Origin: Nitrososphaerota archaeon
Lineage (GTDB): Archaea; Thermoproteota; Nitrososphaeria; Nitrososphaerales; Nitrosopumilaceae
NCBI GenBank assembly: GCA_028866655.1
Contig: JAGWHQ010000016.1
Span: 1-34,009 of the forward strand
DNA: 34,009 bases
Direction of reading: 5' to 3'
This document shows positions 14,110-25,206 of the stretch, piece by piece; within the stretch, counting starts at the first letter, position 1; the number at the start of each line of letters is the position of its first letter. The position numbers were made by a program, and so were the translations under genes. The notes beneath the pieces were generated by a model. It was not told where the DNA came from, searched no databases, and saw nothing but the letters and a program-made list of their open reading frames with translations.

Positions 14110-15042
14110 ATGCCTACGTTTATCGATGGTCACAGTTCAAAAGGTTTGACACATGAAGATTTAGAAAGATTGGTAGATTTGCCTCCAGATAAATTTGGAG
14201 TCACTCATCTAGAGCTATTTTTCAATAAAAAAGAGGACAAGATTTACTGTATATTAGATGCCCCAGATGAAGAATCAATATGGAAGCACCATGAAGCAGC
14301 AGGCTTCAAGTGTGATTTTATTACAGAAGTTAATCAGGTCAAGACAGAAAAAACTACAAAGACTGAGAAACTTGTGACCTTAGGTCAAATGAGCTCAAAC
14401 ATTAGTCATGATCTAAGAAACCCAATGTCAGTAATTAAAAACTCGGTAGACTTGTTGAGTATCAAGTACAAAGATCAACTCAATCCAGGAGCTTTAGATC
14501 AGATTTCAAAGATAGACCGTGCCGTTTTTAGCATGAGTATGATGATAAATGACATATTAAATTTTGCAAGAACCCAATCTTTGCATTTAGAAGATCATTC
14601 CTTGATAAACACCATAACTCACTCTATTGCGCCAATCAAGATTCCTTTGAATATCAAAATAACACTTCCACAAAATGACATCATACTAAAGTGTGATGGT
14701 CCAAAACTAGAATCAGTCTTTTACAACTTGATAATGAACGCAGTTCAATCCATGAATGGAAATCATGGCGGTGAAATTGTGATCAAACTTGTTGAAAAAA
14801 CAGACGACAAGATTCAGATCCAGGTTCAAAATTCAGGCCCTCCAATCCCAGATGAACTGTTGACTAGAATATTTGAGCCATTATTTACTACAAAACAACA
14901 TGGAACTGGGCTTGGTTTGCCAAGTGCCAAGAATGTAATTGAGCAACACTATGGAACAATACATGCTTCAAACAATCCCACTACCTTTACCATTACATTG
15001 CCAAAACATATTGAAAAATTACTTGCCGTAGATAAGAGATAA
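14110..15042 (+). CDS. DUF4242-like sensor fused to a soluble histidine kinase
   Basis: A 310-residue protein with no membrane segment. Residues 1-77 (MPTFIDGHSSKGLTHEDLER, then ELFFNKKEDKIYCILDAPDE and WKHHEAAGFKCDFITEV) match the DUF4242 ferredoxin-like fold; a Streptomyces relative is a nickel-binding protein. A short helix leads to HisKA (LGQMSSNISHDLRNPMSVI, His100) and HATPase_c with N-box FYNLIMNAVQSM, F-box IFEPLFTTK and G2 GTGLGL. The G1 box reads NSGPPIP (241-247) instead of DxGxGIP, so ATP binding may be impaired. His/Cys residues in the N-domain (H8, H15, H33, C47, H60, H61, C68) could bind metal. Leaderless promoter; no receiver domain is adjacent. Confidence 0.85.
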   Translation: MPTFIDGHSSKGLTHEDLERLVDLPPDKFGVTHLELFFNKKEDKIYCILDAPDEESIWKHHEAAGFKCDFITEVNQVKTEKTTKTEKLVTLGQMSSNISHDLRNPMSVIKNSVDLLSIKYKDQLNPGALDQISKIDRAVFSMSMMINDILNFARTQSLHLEDHSLINTITHSIAPIKIPLNIKITLPQNDIILKCDGPKLESVFYNLIMNAVQSMNGNHGGEIVIKLVEKTDDKIQIQVQNSGPPIPDELLTRIFEPLFTTKQHGTGLGLPSAKNVIEQHYGTIHASNNPTTFTITLPKHIEKLLAVDKR

Positions 15043-18468: not shown

Positions 18469-20103
18469 TTATTTTGGAATATTGATGATAAACGTAGTAC
18501 CTTTATTGATTTCAGTCTTGATATCAATATAACCTCCGTGCTTTTCAACGATATTTTTACAGCTCACTAGGCCTAGTCCTGTTCCTATTTGCCTTGTTGT
18601 AAATAATGGATCAAATATTTTTGGCATTAAGATCTTTGGAATACCAGGACCTGTGTCTTCAATTTCTATAGTTGTAAAATTTTTGTTTACATCATTGGTG
18701 ATCTGAGTGTCTTTTATTCTAAAATATATAATTCCGCAATTATTCATTGCCTGTGTTGCATTTAATAGAAGATTTGTGAATACAATTTCTAGTTTTTCTG
18801 GATCGCATCTAATCATGACATCATTTTGTGGTACATGAATTTGAGTATCCTTTGTTGTAACATTCAAGACGGATGAATTTATCACACCAAGCAATGAAAC
18901 GTGTTCTTGAAGATTTAATGGATTTGGTACAACATACTCCATTACCTCGTCTATCTGATGAGTCATTCTTTTTACAGCACGCTCAATTCTGTCAAATTTT
19001 GACTGGTTATTTTTCTCAAAATCAGGATTTTGAATTTTGATTATTTCAAGAGTGTTATGCACTACAGACAGTGGATTTCTGAGATCATGAGCTATACGAG
19101 CAGAGAGTTCTCCAATAGCAGAAAGTCTTTTTGTTTTATGCTCTTCAATTTCTTTTCTTGCATTATACATCACAGTCATATCTCGTAGTGCTCCAATTCG
19201 TCCAGTCAAATTGCCATCTGTATCATAAAGATTTGTTGAAAGAAGTAACGTAGGAAAAATATCACCAGATTTTCGTTGAAGCCAAATCTCTCTATTTCCT
19301 ATTGAACCAGTGTGATCCCATTCCAAAGTTGCATCCTTGAGATCATCAATACTTTTTTCTGCCACATGTGTATACATTGATTTTCCTATGATCTCTTCTC
19401 GTGAATAACCAAGACTGGAACAATACGAATCGTTACAGTCGATTACATTTCCATTCAAGTCAATAGTACGCAGAAGATCAGGAGATTTTTCATATAACGT
19501 CCTATACTTTTGTTCAGTCTCCAACAGGTGATCATATGCAATCTTGAGCGCTTCATTTTGTTGTTTTAACTTCTTCTCATTGACCTCAACTGTCTTTTGT
19601 ATCTCATACAAATCAGTTATGTCCCTAATCGTAGTATTACTTCCAATCAATTTTTCGTTAACATCATAAAGATTTGTGGTATTTATCAGTCCGAGAAATT
19701 CAGTGTTATTTCTTCGTTTGAACCAGATTGTGGCATTTGATACATTACCAGTATTTTTCCACATTTGAAAGAAATTCTCATATTCTTCAATACTTTGAAT
19801 TGCTACAAAATCAAAGATGGTTTTTCCTATAACTTCATTTTTTTGATATCCAAGTCTTTCGGCATAAAATTCATTGCACGCGAAAATAACACCATCAATA
19901 GTTGTAGAACATAACATACAAGGAGTTTTTTCATACATATCTTTGTAATTTTGTTCCAAGAGTACATGAGGATCATACAATTTAGAAGAATTTGTCACAG
20001 TATAATATGACTGATCATTTTGAAAGATTTTTTTTACATCACCAGATCGAATTCTAGATTCTTTTTTTGGCCTTATTCGAGACTTACTTGCCATACCGGA
20101 CAT
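18469..20103 (-). CDS. PAS-PAS sensor histidine kinase
   Basis: A 544-residue cytoplasmic kinase: a Lys/Arg-rich start, PAS 1 (about 52-165, GVIFACNEFYAERLGYQKNE and DFVAIQSIEEYE), PAS 2 (about 200-312, GNVIDCNDSYCSSLGYSREE, RDMT end), HisKA with LSARIAHDLRNPLSVV (His339) and a complete HATPase_c: N-box FTNLLLNATQAM, G1 DTGPGIP, F-box IFDPLFTT, G2 GTGLGL. The start could be 20103 or the ATG at 20094. There is no neighbouring receiver on the same operon; the RR at 21.5 kb is a candidate partner. The PAS ligand is unknown; Cys residues (62, 65, 76, 223, 228) may sense redox state or metal. Confidence 0.9.
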   Translation of the reverse strand: MSGMASKSRIRPKKESRIRSGDVKKIFQNDQSYYTVTNSSKLYDPHVLLEQNYKDMYEKTPCMLCSTTIDGVIFACNEFYAERLGYQKNEVIGKTIFDFVAIQSIEEYENFFQMWKNTGNVSNATIWFKRRNNTEFLGLINTTNLYDVNEKLIGSNTTIRDITDLYEIQKTVEVNEKKLKQQNEALKIAYDHLLETEQKYRTLYEKSPDLLRTIDLNGNVIDCNDSYCSSLGYSREEIIGKSMYTHVAEKSIDDLKDATLEWDHTGSIGNREIWLQRKSGDIFPTLLLSTNLYDTDGNLTGRIGALRDMTVMYNARKEIEEHKTKRLSAIGELSARIAHDLRNPLSVVHNTLEIIKIQNPDFEKNNQSKFDRIERAVKRMTHQIDEVMEYVVPNPLNLQEHVSLLGVINSSVLNVTTKDTQIHVPQNDVMIRCDPEKLEIVFTNLLLNATQAMNNCGIIYFRIKDTQITNDVNKNFTTIEIEDTGPGIPKILMPKIFDPLFTTRQIGTGLGLVSCKNIVEKHGGYIDIKTEINKGTTFIINIPK

Positions 20104-21527: not shown

Positions 21528-21947
21528 ATGGTGAAAACCGCTTCTCAATCTCACGTAGACAGTGTAGACAATTTCATTACAGCAATAGTGATTGATGATG
21601 ACAAGGATACAGTATCTGTGTTATCTGACTTTTTGATGATAAAAGGCATCAAAGTGATTGGAAGGGGATATGATGGACTAGAGGCAGTTGAAATCTACAA
21701 GAGGCTCAAGCCAGATGCTGTATTTTTAGATGTGATGATGGAAACATATGATGGATTATACGCATTAGAGAAGATTAGAGAAATTCACAATGACGCACTT
21801 GTAATAATGGTAACAGCAGATTTGACAAGTGATACTCATGATAGATTGTTACGCCTTAATGCATCTGCCATAATTTACAAGCCTTATGATATCAACGAAA
21901 TAATGCATATTTTGAATAAACTGTATACGCTCAAGGTGGCTTCATAA
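21528..21947 (+). CDS. Single-domain response regulator (CheY-like receiver)
   Basis: A 139-residue receiver domain: acidic pocket IVIDDDKDT (Asp23-25), phosphoacceptor Asp68 (VFLDVMM), Thr96 (VTADL) and Lys118 (YKPY) are all in place. No output domain, so it acts by protein contact. It is the first gene of a two-gene operon: its TAA (21945-21947) is followed at once by the next ATG. The promoter has a perfect 18-base palindrome. The kinase partner is not coded alongside; the PAS-PAS kinase 1.4 kb away is a candidate. Confidence 0.93.
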   Translation: MVKTASQSHVDSVDNFITAIVIDDDKDTVSVLSDFLMIKGIKVIGRGYDGLEAVEIYKRLKPDAVFLDVMMETYDGLYALEKIREIHNDALVIMVTADLTSDTHDRLLRLNASAIIYKPYDINEIMHILNKLYTLKVAS

Positions 21948-22922
21948 ATGAAACAAGAATTATTTGAGGATCTTGCATCTCAAAAAATCCTTCTCAAAGA
22001 GATGAATTCTGAGCTCAAGAAACGTGTTGACAGTTTAGAGACAGGCACAACAAATCTTGAGCACGATATTTCAGAGAAAGAAAAGATAATCGAGGATCTT
22101 CGTCAAGACAAGAAAATGTTAACGAGCCTGTTAAAGAACGAGCCTCGTAAAAATAAGATTTTACGAAATGTTACAATAGTAGCTGCATTAGGATTGGCAT
22201 TTTTCATCTTTGTTTCGTATGTTCCAAGTGATCTACAGTCGTTTTATAATTCTGGCAACACGCCACTTAAAACACAATATTTGATACAAAACCTAAGAGG
22301 TAATACGGTAGACACATGGAAACCATGGCACCTTGTAAACAATCAAACTCTGAACATAAACATACTAAATTCAAACATGGTGTCAAAAGAAAAAATAAAT
22401 GCCATCAAAAATGCGATACTCTCGCAAGAATCTGTTAAGATAGACAATTCTTTGCTTGGAAGGGGACCAGTTGGTACTGTTTCAACATATTACAAAGGAT
22501 GGGAAGGTGCAATTCAAAACATGCAAACTGAAAAATCAACATTTTACATACCAACCAAGTTCAACATAATCCAATCACCAAGTGAAGAAGGAGACATTAC
22601 AATAGTTCTCTCAGATCTTCAAGACCCAGATGGATATTCGGGATACACTAAAACCATTACAGATGGACAGGAGACACTAAAAGCAGCAATAACAATTTAC
22701 GATGTAAACAATATCTCAGCTGAGCGACTAGGTGCCATAGTCAGACATGAATTTGGCCATGCATTGGGGTTGGGGCACTCTAGTGATGAGGATGACTTGA
22801 TGCATTACGTAATTGAGACAAACTTTCCGTTCATCTCAGATTGTGATACAAACGCAGTAAAGGATCTATACAATGGCAAGGATCTAAGTGATGTGGTATG
22901 CGGACCACAAAAATCTGCCTAG
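21948..22922 (+). CDS. Coiled-coil, membrane-anchored matrixin-like metalloprotease
   Basis: A 324-residue protein. Residues 1-65 are a Glu/Lys/Leu-rich coiled coil, then a membrane helix (about 73-91, VTIVAALGLAFFIFVSYV), then a soluble domain with the metzincin zinc site HEFGHALGLGH (His267, Glu268, His271, His277) and a Met-turn (DLMHY, Met285). The type fits zinc-dependent endopeptidases of the matrixin/peptidase M10 kind. N-in topology puts the coiled coil inside and the protease outside. ATG follows the RR stop directly with AAGGTGG 8 bases earlier, so expression is coupled. The link receiver -> coiled coil -> outside protease is inferred. Confidence 0.88.
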   Translation: MKQELFEDLASQKILLKEMNSELKKRVDSLETGTTNLEHDISEKEKIIEDLRQDKKMLTSLLKNEPRKNKILRNVTIVAALGLAFFIFVSYVPSDLQSFYNSGNTPLKTQYLIQNLRGNTVDTWKPWHLVNNQTLNINILNSNMVSKEKINAIKNAILSQESVKIDNSLLGRGPVGTVSTYYKGWEGAIQNMQTEKSTFYIPTKFNIIQSPSEEGDITIVLSDLQDPDGYSGYTKTITDGQETLKAAITIYDVNNISAERLGAIVRHEFGHALGLGHSSDEDDLMHYVIETNFPFISDCDTNAVKDLYNGKDLSDVVCGPQKSA

Positions 22923-23221
22923 GCTTTTGCCTTGAATTGGAAGAACACTTCTTTTCTTGTTCCCTCTTGATCCCAAGCAGCAACTTTGTATCGTCCTGGA
23001 ACTTTCCATTGTTTTGTATCAAATCGCAGAACATTAGAGTACGATCCCTTTTGTGAATTCAGATACTGGTCTTCACTGAACACTTCTCTTTCAGAAGGAT
23101 CAAAGATGACCAAATGCATTGCCTGCTTTGGAGAAAGTGCTTCATAATCTAATTTTATCTTGACATATTCTCCTTCTGTGTATATTGCCTTGTCAAGATT
23201 TATCATTATTTTATTTGGCAT
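22919..23221 (-). CDS. Small beta-sandwich (macroglobulin-like) protein
   Basis: A 100-residue protein starting MPNKIMINLDKAIYTEGEYV, with YEALSPKQAMHLVIFDPSE, FDTKQWKVPGRYKVAAWD and a basic end FQFKAKA. The pattern Y-x-x-GE-x-V-x-I with paired strands resembles an MG2-type or Ig-like domain often found in thaumarchaeal surface proteins. It has no signal peptide. ATG 23221 is 27 bases after CTATTAAATTCC. The stop overlaps the protease stop by 4 bases (CTAG at 22919-22922), so the genes converge with no spacer. Confidence 0.65.
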   Translation of the reverse strand: MPNKIMINLDKAIYTEGEYVKIKLDYEALSPKQAMHLVIFDPSEREVFSEDQYLNSQKGSYSNVLRFDTKQWKVPGRYKVAAWDQEGTRKEVFFQFKAKA

Positions 23222-23262
23222 TACAAACAATCGTTTTGACGGAATTTAATAGTCTTATGACA

Positions 23263-25206
23263 TCATATTGGCGTCAACAACTGCATGTGTGAGTGCAGAG
23301 TTATTCCAAACTTGTCTGCAAAACCTGCTGCAACCTCCAAGACGTACTGTGCTTGCGTTATGTCTTGGCCATATATAGTACAAGGATCTGCAGTACATGC
23401 TGGAGCATTTTTTTCTATATGCAAGACATTTCCAGAACTGTCAAGCCAGATTATATCAATAGGAAATTGCATCTCTTTCATCCATATCGAGATAACCTGT
23501 GGTTGTGCAAATGGAAAGAGCATGCCCTGACTGTATGACAATGGAGTGTGATATTGTAATCCCTTGTTTTGTCTCTGTGGTGTATCTGCAATTTCAATAT
23601 CAAGTGATACATTATCTAGCTTGATCTTTCCTGTTGGCAGACCAGTCAAATTAGTAGGCGTACCATTTTGAGAGACTGGTAGAGATATCATGCCGTTTGA
23701 GGCAAGATACTGCATCGCCCCTGCAAATTCACCATTAGATATAGAACCTGATGACCAGGACTTGGCATCGTCTTTAACCCACAAAGGAATCTGTGATGTT
23801 GTATTATCAGATAGAGCAATTTGTGGGATATCTACTATTTTGTTGTCAATCAAATATTGCATATCTTGGAGAAATTGTTCATCAGTCATTGAACCATCAG
23901 ACCAAAACTTGGCATCGTCTTTCATCCAAGATGGAATTAGGACCTGACCAGTTGCATAGTTTGAATAGGAAATTTTGTTTGTATCAATGAGTTTGTATGA
24001 TTGCTTGTCAACTGTAACCTTGCCACCTACATTTACAACATGTGAGATTACAAGCTGAATCAATATTCCAGTATCTTTGTCAAATTGTACCAGAATAGAA
24101 TTTGTTTGGTTGTTGGTTTGAGCAGATAGAACATCTCTTGTATAGTTGTTAAACTGTACAGAGCCTTCATGGTATGCATTGTTTAGTTTCAGAGGAGTTG
24201 GCAACAAGTACATGAAATTAGAGGCATTGCCACTTGGACGTGCAAAGAGTGCTTTTGTCAGATCAAGTATATCATATTCAGATGCAGGTGAGCCGTTTTG
24301 TATGGCACTTGTTTTGACTGTAATATTCTTGTTATCAGTAGGATTTTCAAAGTCAAACTGTATAGTTTGGTTTAGATCAGAGGTTGTTATCTGATACTTG
24401 AGATAATCCCCAGGCAAGGCACACAGTTGGTTTGTTTGACACTGTGGGTTTTGAGTTGGGATAATTGAATTTTCATGCAGTGTTGTCACCTCACTTTGTG
24501 GAGCATTTGGTGGAAGACTAGTTGATGGCCCCTGTCCGTATACCACCATCACAGGAATTTGATTTCCAGAAGGAGATGTTACCGATGCAGAATACTGCGG
24601 ACAAACTTTGGAAAAATCACCTTGTTGGCAGTCATTTTCTAATGCCTGGATGTAATGAACCCATGACACAGAGATAGAATCAGGCTCTCCAAAATACCGT
24701 AATGAGAAATGCGATAATTCGTGAGACAAAATCCATGCACCTGCCCAGCTTTCTATCTGGGTGTCACAAGAGCAGACATAGATTGCCTGCATGCCAGTGC
24801 CTGTTATCTCATACATTCCGTAAAATCCCTGCTGGACTAGCTGTTGACCAACAGTATTATCAGATATCACAACAGGAAGTGTAAACGTAGACAGCCCAGA
24901 GAAATACGATTGATAATTTTTCAGTGGAATACAGAGTGAGCCTTGCAGATCATGAGATATTCCATACAGTGAAAGATATTCATCTGTAATTACCTGGTAA
25001 AATTTTAGACTCTGGTATTCAGAATCAGAACACTTGTCATTTTCAGTTATGTAAAACACTGCATAAGACAGATTAGGGCTGTCTTGATTTTTTTGTTGTT
25101 GGAGCGTTTTAAAATCTGGGCCTGTGGAATTTGTTTGTGCAAATGATGGTACAACAGACAGGACCAGAAGAATTGATAATACCATAGGAAGAAGCAATTT
25201 TTTCAT
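23263..25206 (-). CDS. Large exported multidomain protein: HExxH domain, two repeats, DUF192
   Basis: A 647-residue secreted protein. Signal peptide 1-23 (VLSVVPSFAQ). Around 48-200 lies an unknown domain with a possible metallopeptidase site, ILSHELSHFSLRYFGEP (His162, Glu163, His166), and SWVHYIQALE. Residues about 262-415 form a beta-rich part. Two tandem repeats, IPSWMKDDAKFWSDGSM (423-439) and IPLWVKDDAKSWSSGSI (472-488), each followed by an MQYL helix and a strand, belong to the common thaumarchaeal IP-x-W-x-K repeat. The end (about 525-647) is a full DUF192 domain: GLQYHTPLSYSQGMLFPF, IWMKEMQFPIDIIWLD and VLEVAAGFADKFG (parts). Its role is unknown. Divergent from the SPFH operon; CATATAATAC box upstream. 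Confidence 0.82.
   Translation of the reverse strand: MKKLLLPMVLSILLVLSVVPSFAQTNSTGPDFKTLQQQKNQDSPNLSYAVFYITENDKCSDSEYQSLKFYQVITDEYLSLYGISHDLQGSLCIPLKNYQSYFSGLSTFTLPVVISDNTVGQQLVQQGFYGMYEITGTGMQAIYVCSCDTQIESWAGAWILSHELSHFSLRYFGEPDSISVSWVHYIQALENDCQQGDFSKVCPQYSASVTSPSGNQIPVMVVYGQGPSTSLPPNAPQSEVTTLHENSIIPTQNPQCQTNQLCALPGDYLKYQITTSDLNQTIQFDFENPTDNKNITVKTSAIQNGSPASEYDILDLTKALFARPSGNASNFMYLLPTPLKLNNAYHEGSVQFNNYTRDVLSAQTNNQTNSILVQFDKDTGILIQLVISHVVNVGGKVTVDKQSYKLIDTNKISYSNYATGQVLIPSWMKDDAKFWSDGSMTDEQFLQDMQYLIDNKIVDIPQIALSDNTTSQIPLWVKDDAKSWSSGSISNGEFAGAMQYLASNGMISLPVSQNGTPTNLTGLPTGKIKLDNVSLDIEIADTPQRQNKGLQYHTPLSYSQGMLFPFAQPQVISIWMKEMQFPIDIIWLDSSGNVLHIEKNAPACTADPCTIYGQDITQAQYVLEVAAGFADKFGITLHSHMQLLTPI

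Follow-up and report, generated by a model that had tools for sequence, protein, structure and literature searches.

Why should the gene of a soluble signalling protein stand directly against the gene of a protease that is predicted to face the outside of the cell? The question arises in the window, as we call the whole stretch of 34,009 nucleotides analysed here, which is the entire contig JAGWHQ010000016.1 of a 1.42-Mb genome assembly (GCA_028866655.1, 93 contigs) from a Nitrososphaerota archaeon of the family Nitrosopumilaceae. At positions 21528-22922 a stand-alone receiver (response regulator) gene abuts the gene of a membrane protein with a matrixin domain. The coupling of receiver and matrixin is not an accident; it is real and widely conserved. 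With moderate confidence, we regard the pair as a two-component output, in which the stand-alone receiver has a membrane-anchored surface metalloprotease as its effector.

The receiver, the matrixin protein and their junction

The elements of the pair are as follows (all on the forward strand).

21528-21947, forward: stand-alone CheY-like receiver (response regulator), 139 amino acids, from the open reading frame, Pfam and active-site residues
21729-21731, forward: codon for Asp68, the predicted phospho-acceptor of the receiver
21945-21950, forward: junction, where the receiver stop codon TAA (21945-21947) abuts the matrixin start codon ATG (21948), 0 bases apart
21948-22922, forward: single-pass membrane protein with a cytosolic helix and an extracytoplasmic matrixin (M10-like) domain, 324 amino acids
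21951-22136, forward: predicted cytosolic helix, residues 2-63, the proposed receiver-docking segment (AlphaFold2 model)
22155-22220, forward: predicted transmembrane helix, residues 70-91 (AlphaFold2 model and sequence)
22311-22907, forward: matrixin-like catalytic domain, residues 122-320 approximately (Pfam, profile search, model and Foldseek)
22746-22778, forward: zinc-binding motif HEFGHALGLGH, residues 267-277, which conforms to HExxHxxGxxH
22800-22802, forward: Met-turn methionine M285, invariant in an alignment of 15 rows (A2)

The receiver matches the Pfam family Response_reg (PF00072) over residues 20-129 with a score of 75.4 bits against a cut-off of 30.2 (E-value 4.8e-21). All five of the active-site residues that were checked, D23, D24, the phospho-acceptor D68, T96 and K118, are present. 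The first-pass annotation of this DNA had described a receiver with a complete active site and zero bases between it and the protease gene, and both statements were confirmed.

The matrixin protein matches Peptidase_M10 above the Pfam cut-off (37.6 bits, E-value 2.6e-9, residues 258-308). Its AlphaFold2 model, calculated with a 15-row alignment, has a mean pLDDT of 76.5 and consists of the long N-terminal helix, the membrane helix and a folded domain that starts at about residue 122. The best Foldseek matches of the model in the Protein Data Bank (PDB) are the catalytic domains of matrix metalloproteinases (MMPs). The 50 matches listed have E-values of 1.4e-6 to 7.2e-6 and include karilysin, a bacterial MMP; those of catalytic-domain length have TM-scores by target of 0.55-0.67. 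MMPs were also recovered when the PDB sequences were searched with a profile of the protein (among the 60 matches listed out of 108). The cysteine-switch propeptide of animal MMPs was not found in this protein, because its only cysteines, Cys299 and Cys318, are both located after the zinc motif.

A stretch of basic residues (EPRKNKILRN) precedes the membrane helix, which suggests that the N-terminus lies inside the cell and the protease outside. Among eight orthologues, conservation is 0.90 over residues 1-20 and lower, 0.70-0.76, over residues 21-69. The membrane-anchored matrixin of the first-pass annotation is therefore borne out by Pfam, the intact zinc motif, the AlphaFold2 model and Foldseek. 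The coiled coil of that annotation survives as a long predicted helix (residues 2-63), with nothing beyond a helix being supported.

Distribution of the matrixin family

The nearest named relative of the matrixin protein is encoded by a Candidatus Nitrosotalea metagenome-assembled genome (MAG) and is 88% identical; other close relatives bear the labels of Thaumarchaeota, Nitrosarchaeum or Nitrosopumilales MAGs. With an E-value of 1e-20 or better, the family was found in 105 of 250 genomes and 13 of 22 genera of the archaeal family to which the window belongs. In a search of 151 genomes, the matches in other families of the same order were weak, mostly around the zinc-site part, with a best E-value of 1.1e-7. 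The window genome has one paralogue, which is located on contig 66 (locus L002) and is 46% identical over residues 79-319.

The gene neighbourhoods of 166 distinct members were read. These members were drawn from the matches listed and lean towards the stronger ones. The collection comprised 272 loci, of which 215 were examined and 57 matrixins, mostly from other organisms (L106-L162), were set aside as a control. Duplicates were recognized by identical last 120 residues and removed. A receiver was counted as a neighbour if it lay within 300 bp of the matrixin or was fused to it, and gaps between genes were measured to the nearest possible start codon. The trees mentioned below are quick trees with no bootstraps and many open forks; a few of the receivers marked as not adjacent in the receiver tree stem from the removed duplicate copies.

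Coupling of receivers and matrixins across genomes

A receiver lies within 300 bp of the matrixin, or is fused to it, in 100 of the 166 members. Its gene precedes the matrixin on the same strand in 53 cases and follows it on the same strand in 23; the two genes are convergent in 20 cases, divergent in two and fused in two. The chance expectation of a receiver this close to a random gene is about 1.8%, a rate that was estimated from the receiver counts of two genomes (13 in the window genome and 17 in genome G006) and that ignores shared descent. In 24 genomes of the same genus the number of receivers varies from 3 to 19. A matrixin-motif reading frame was present in 51 of the 57 control loci, and none of these 51 has a receiver within 300 bp, the nearest being 408 bp away (L136), although the receiver profile was trained on archaeal receivers and could miss bacterial ones.

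The upstream receivers tend to be close to the matrixin. In 39 of the 53 pairs no more than 20 bases separate the receiver stop from the nearest possible matrixin start, and in seven the distance is exactly zero, as in the window. Readthrough of the stop codon was considered and rejected: in 20 of the 53 pairs the two genes share a reading frame with just one intervening stop, which is close to the one third that chance would give, and all three stop codons are used.

When eight genomes, that of the window and seven close ones, were searched with the window receiver, the top match in every one was the copy that abuts the matrixin. These copies are 62-86% identical in the seven close genomes, and the next receiver of the window genome is 47% identical. 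One of the genomes, G016, has a further copy elsewhere (contig 101) with 72% identity.

Could the adjacency be an inherited gene order without function? Five of the six orthologous loci are broadly syntenic over the whole neighbourhood, and adjacency in these five therefore carries little weight. The sixth locus, L268, retains the receiver-matrixin pair but not the histidine kinase and DnaJ genes, which are gone from the stretch examined. Furthermore, the arrangement varies between clades, and receivers are still found at the matrixin; by parsimony on the ectodomain tree (165 rows), the arrangement has changed at least 28 times and the presence of a receiver at least 20 times. Mere inheritance of gene order is thus disfavoured and very improbable.

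The partner receivers belong to at least three lineages. Paralogous matrixins of one genome can be paired with receivers that are only 21-22% identical to that of the window (e.g. in G004 and G035). In two members, L076 and L077, the receiver is fused to the matrixin, with both Pfam domains above their cut-offs. The fused receivers were examined as possible direct descendants of the convergent partner, but they fall outside the convergent clade, within the same larger receiver group. The phospho-acceptor aspartate is kept in 98 of the 100 partner receivers, and all five checked residues in 91.

A second alternative is that the two genes are merely co-expressed. They would then belong to one regulon or stress response, the receiver would be a diffusible CheY-like protein that acts elsewhere, and the protease would be constitutive. 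Translational coupling alone holds genes together, and most thaumarchaeal stand-alone receivers have unknown partners according to passages of the archaeal census (PMC5847659). The two fusions and the HisKA-type segments found within the membrane protein (see below) speak against this alternative and lend indirect support to a physical interaction of receiver and effector; a pairing that recurs across gene orders and receiver lineages also speaks against it. We consider it unlikely that co-expression is the whole explanation.

Other inputs to the same ectodomain

Receivers are one of several inputs found with the matrixin domain. A HisKA-type H-box motif occurs in the cytosolic part of 16 members; the receiver is upstream on the same strand in 15 of them and downstream in the remaining one. 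HisKA (PF00512) scored above its cut-off in seven of the scanned proteins, and HATPase_c is not among the domains listed for any of them. Six of the seven are full-length matrixins, and the other, L056, is the N-terminal fragment of a matrixin whose gene is broken. In one of the six, L059, the H-box histidine is replaced by aspartate, and this member has no receiver within 300 bp. In the model of another member, L094, helices at residues 66-91 and 100-125 cover the HisKA stretch, and a long helix at 141-238 enters the membrane part. The catalytic domain of L094 matches MMPs and other metzincins in Foldseek; its helical part has no Foldseek match at an E-value of 0.001.

HisKA domains are the natural docking partners of receivers, and a HisKA domain without HATPase could serve as a docking module, as is known of DHp domains. 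The HisKA-bearing members suggest where the receiver should dock. Since HisKA-type segments are natural docking sites, the cytosolic helix may also dock the receiver in members where HisKA is unrecognizable.

In 36 of the 166 members the matrixin gene is immediately preceded, on the same strand, by a gene for a CBS-like protein (gaps of -34 to +41 bases), and in a 37th such a gene lies downstream. A Pfam CBS match with an E-value of 0.05 or better was obtained for 16 of 17 aligned CBS-like proteins (best 2.9e-10), and the three proteins whose scores were seen fall below the curated CBS cut-off. Half of the upstream-CBS members (18 of 36) also have a convergent receiver. The CBS-like protein is about 300 residues long (L272:5767-6648, L271:3416-4345 and others) and is also found beside the window paralogue on contig 66.

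Other inputs are built into the matrixin chain itself. Two members (L064 and L235) contain a dCache domain, and 12 members, including these two, have more than one predicted membrane helix. Receivers, HisKA-type segments, CBS-like proteins, Cache domains and multi-helix regions are thus exchanged as inputs while the ectodomain stays the same, and this is the pattern of a signalling output. The exchange is also the more surprising part of the finding.

The first-pass annotation had proposed phosphorelay-controlled surface proteolysis and had named conservation of the pair in other genomes as a check. The proposal is partly supported: the pair proved to be conserved across species, it persists at L268, and it occurs with varied receiver lineages, in varied orders and as fusions. 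The interpretation was too narrow in naming the receiver alone, as there are several inputs.

The zinc site and the direction of signalling

The full HExxHxxGxxH motif is kept in 151 of the 166 members, including all 78 that have an upstream, downstream same-strand or divergent receiver. The 15 members that have lost it comprise seven of the 20 convergent members, both fusions and six members without a receiver; the paralogue of the window genome, L002, is one of the 15. In most cases it is the third zinc histidine that is replaced (changed sites were noted in L002, L054, L063, L068, L069, L070, L072, L076, L077 and others). Some of the motif-lacking members may be inactive, or may act as sensors or, in some clades, as binders instead of cutters.

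These losses bear on a third alternative, in which signals travel from the outside inwards. The matrixin fold would be a surface sensor that binds zinc, peptides or the cell wall, the helix would report to the receiver, a kinase or the CBS-like protein, and proteolysis would be secondary or lost. The decayed zinc sites are consistent with this, as is the third zinc histidine, which falls outside the columns of alignment A2 that are invariant or nearly so; a HisKA domain without HATPase, a possible docking module, would suit this direction too. The intact motif in the great body of the family, and in every member with a receiver in one of the three gene orders named above, argues against this alternative, and the dCache and multi-helix regions that share a chain with the matrixin domain are easier to reconcile with an output than with a further sensor. 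Signalling from the outside inwards is in our opinion quite improbable. Control of a surface protease from the cytosol is the reading pursued below.

At four loci, L248, L249, L254 and L258, matrixins form divergent pairs with extra membrane helices, and one partner of each pair is without the full zinc motif.

Points that weigh against receiver control of a surface protease

Several observations count against the preferred reading, and the losses of the zinc motif, in the paralogue of the window genome as elsewhere, are among them. The receiver fusions, whose zinc sites are changed, are good evidence of coupling and not of proteolysis.

The coupling is also incomplete. Sixty of the 166 members have no receiver within 300 bp, and a further six stand at contig ends. 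Of the 60, 43 have no CBS-like gene within that distance either, although fused sensor parts are present in some of them. In 18 of the 20 members of the convergent clade, the gene immediately upstream of the matrixin is CBS-like, so that the receiver is not the nearest operon partner there, and the 20 convergent receivers are for this reason a weaker case than the other gene orders. Two upstream partner receivers have glutamate in place of the phospho-acceptor aspartate, and seven downstream ones lack the threonine and the lysine.

The seven receivers without threonine and lysine (L015, L185, L225, L093, L052, L211 and L097) are 216-226 residues long and keep the phospho-acceptor aspartate. 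The one that was scanned with Pfam, L015, has a NitrOD5-like C-terminal domain with a match below the cut-off.

The association of the receiver with a long cytosolic segment is weak. A receiver is present in 79 of 108 members with a long segment and in 17 of 33 with a short one (Fisher p 0.03; 25 of the 166 rows were left out, namely 11 skipped rows, 12 members with several membrane helices and the two fusions). A rule that a matrixin without a cytosolic helix has no receiver is not upheld by the 17 short members.

For upstream receivers, evolutionary distances track those of the cytosolic helix (partial r 0.69, reached in 0 of 999 permutations, 52 rows). For downstream same-strand receivers they track the ectodomain instead, with a partial r of 0.70 compared to 0.04 for the helix (22 rows). 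Convergent receivers follow both about equally (r 0.67 for the helix and 0.71 for the ectodomain, 20 rows). The correlation was therefore discarded as a proof of contact between receiver and helix. It is confounded and reverses with gene order, and because the pattern follows gene order, linkage on the DNA explains it equally well.

Proposed mechanism

In our best reading, the matrixin is an archaeal signal-transduction output, in which the phosphorylation or ligand state of a cytosolic partner would control the surface protease through the cytosolic helix. Signalling from the inside outwards is the simplest model. For direct binding, phosphorylation, activity, direction and substrate, we propose the following scheme. 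A histidine kinase would phosphorylate the receiver, whose contact with the cytosolic helix at the N-terminus of the matrixin protein would depend on its phosphorylation state. The altered contact would be relayed through the transmembrane helix or through the oligomeric state, and the outward-facing matrixin domain would be switched on or off, so that a surface protein could be cut on demand. One candidate for the kinase is encoded near the pair.

18469-20103, reverse: PAS-PAS-HisKA-HATPase histidine kinase, candidate cognate kinase of the receiver (Pfam)

This kinase gene is kept nearby in five of the six orthologous loci and is gone from the examined stretch of the sixth, L268. It was not accepted as a proven partner, since unrelated genes are equally syntenic in the five loci and it is missing at L268. 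The orthologue of the kinase at L265:13205-14886 is apparently split into two overlapping reading frames.

A broader proposal, which we hold more tentatively and give a little less than an even chance, sees in the matrixin ectodomain a transmembrane output module that serves the sensory systems of this archaeal family in general. Surface proteolysis, or surface binding where the zinc site has decayed, would be gated by interchangeable inputs: receivers of several lineages, HisKA-type segments that lack an ATPase, tandem CBS-like proteins, dCache domains and multi-helix membrane regions. Histidine-aspartate phosphorelays that terminate in an extracellular metalloprotease would then form a class of inside-out signalling.

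Comparison with known systems

Stand-alone receivers make up about 75% of thaumarchaeal response regulators, and most of them have no conserved neighbourhood, as stated in passages of the census of archaeal two-component systems (Galperin et al. 2018, PMC5847659). The receiver of the window resembles the CheY-like stand-alone regulators described there in being a receiver-only protein with the active-site residues. It differs in that a conserved partner can be given here for a subset of such receivers: the matrixin family provides some of them with a concrete, conserved partner and a testable output. In the main text of that census, the words peptidase, protease, metalloprotease and matrixin never occur.

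With the matrixins (family M10, including human MMPs and karilysin) the protein shares the zinc motif, the Met-turn and the predicted catalytic fold. Unlike the MMPs and karilysin, it has an N-terminal membrane anchor and a cytosolic segment, has no cysteine switch, and is proposed to be controlled from the cytosolic side.

The nearest working analogy is the LapD-LapG system, in which the cell surface is changed by a protease that acts beyond the membrane but is governed by a signal in the cytosol. LapG is a separate cysteine protease that is recruited by the c-di-GMP receptor LapD, whereas here the protease domain itself bears the membrane and cytosolic parts. The systems would thus differ in input, protease type and architecture, the input here being a receiver, a HisKA-type segment or a CBS-like protein and the protease a zinc matrixin. 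No c-di-GMP-related domain was found in the receiver or the matrixin protein with Pfam at an E-value of 0.1.

RssB and CpdR are response regulators that act as proteolysis adaptors for cytosolic AAA+ proteases. They resemble the present pair in having a receiver with protein degradation as its output, but the protease domain here is predicted to lie outside the membrane. The NCBIfam models of RssB and CpdR gave matches only far below their cut-offs.

Matrixin and adamalysin genes of Nitrosopumilus are named as degradative in a passage of a paper on sponge symbionts (PMC6697440), and in the passages concerned of a 2025 MMP phylogeny (PMC12587646) the order, spelled 'Nitrospumilales', is mentioned only as sparsely sampled. 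A description of a receiver-matrixin pair was not found in the literature, as judged from titles and the beginnings of abstracts of the papers listed and from passages of PMC5847659, PMC6697440 and PMC12587646. The genetic coupling is thus undescribed as far as the literature was searched, and the mechanism is plausible, but a proposal. Together they suggest an undescribed means of controlling the cutting of surface proteins in ammonia-oxidizing archaea. If this is correct, extracellular proteolysis would join the known outputs of phosphorelays, in ammonia oxidizers whose surface biology is poorly known.

Neighbouring genes

The reverse strand encodes, at 22919-23230 and convergent with the matrixin gene, a small protein whose match to MG2 (macroglobulin-like) is weak and does not reach the cut-off. 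Its reading frame overlaps the 3' end of the matrixin gene by four bases, and it adjoins the orthologous pair in five of six loci. Also on the reverse strand, 23263-25206 encodes a protein of 647 residues that has a DUF192 domain at its C-terminus. Its N-terminal half contains an HExxH motif (SHELSH), by which it is possibly a second metalloprotease near the matrixin. Further away, at 14110-15042 on the forward strand, another histidine kinase is encoded, in which an N-terminal SCO4226-like domain (a nickel-responsive family) is followed by HisKA and HATPase.
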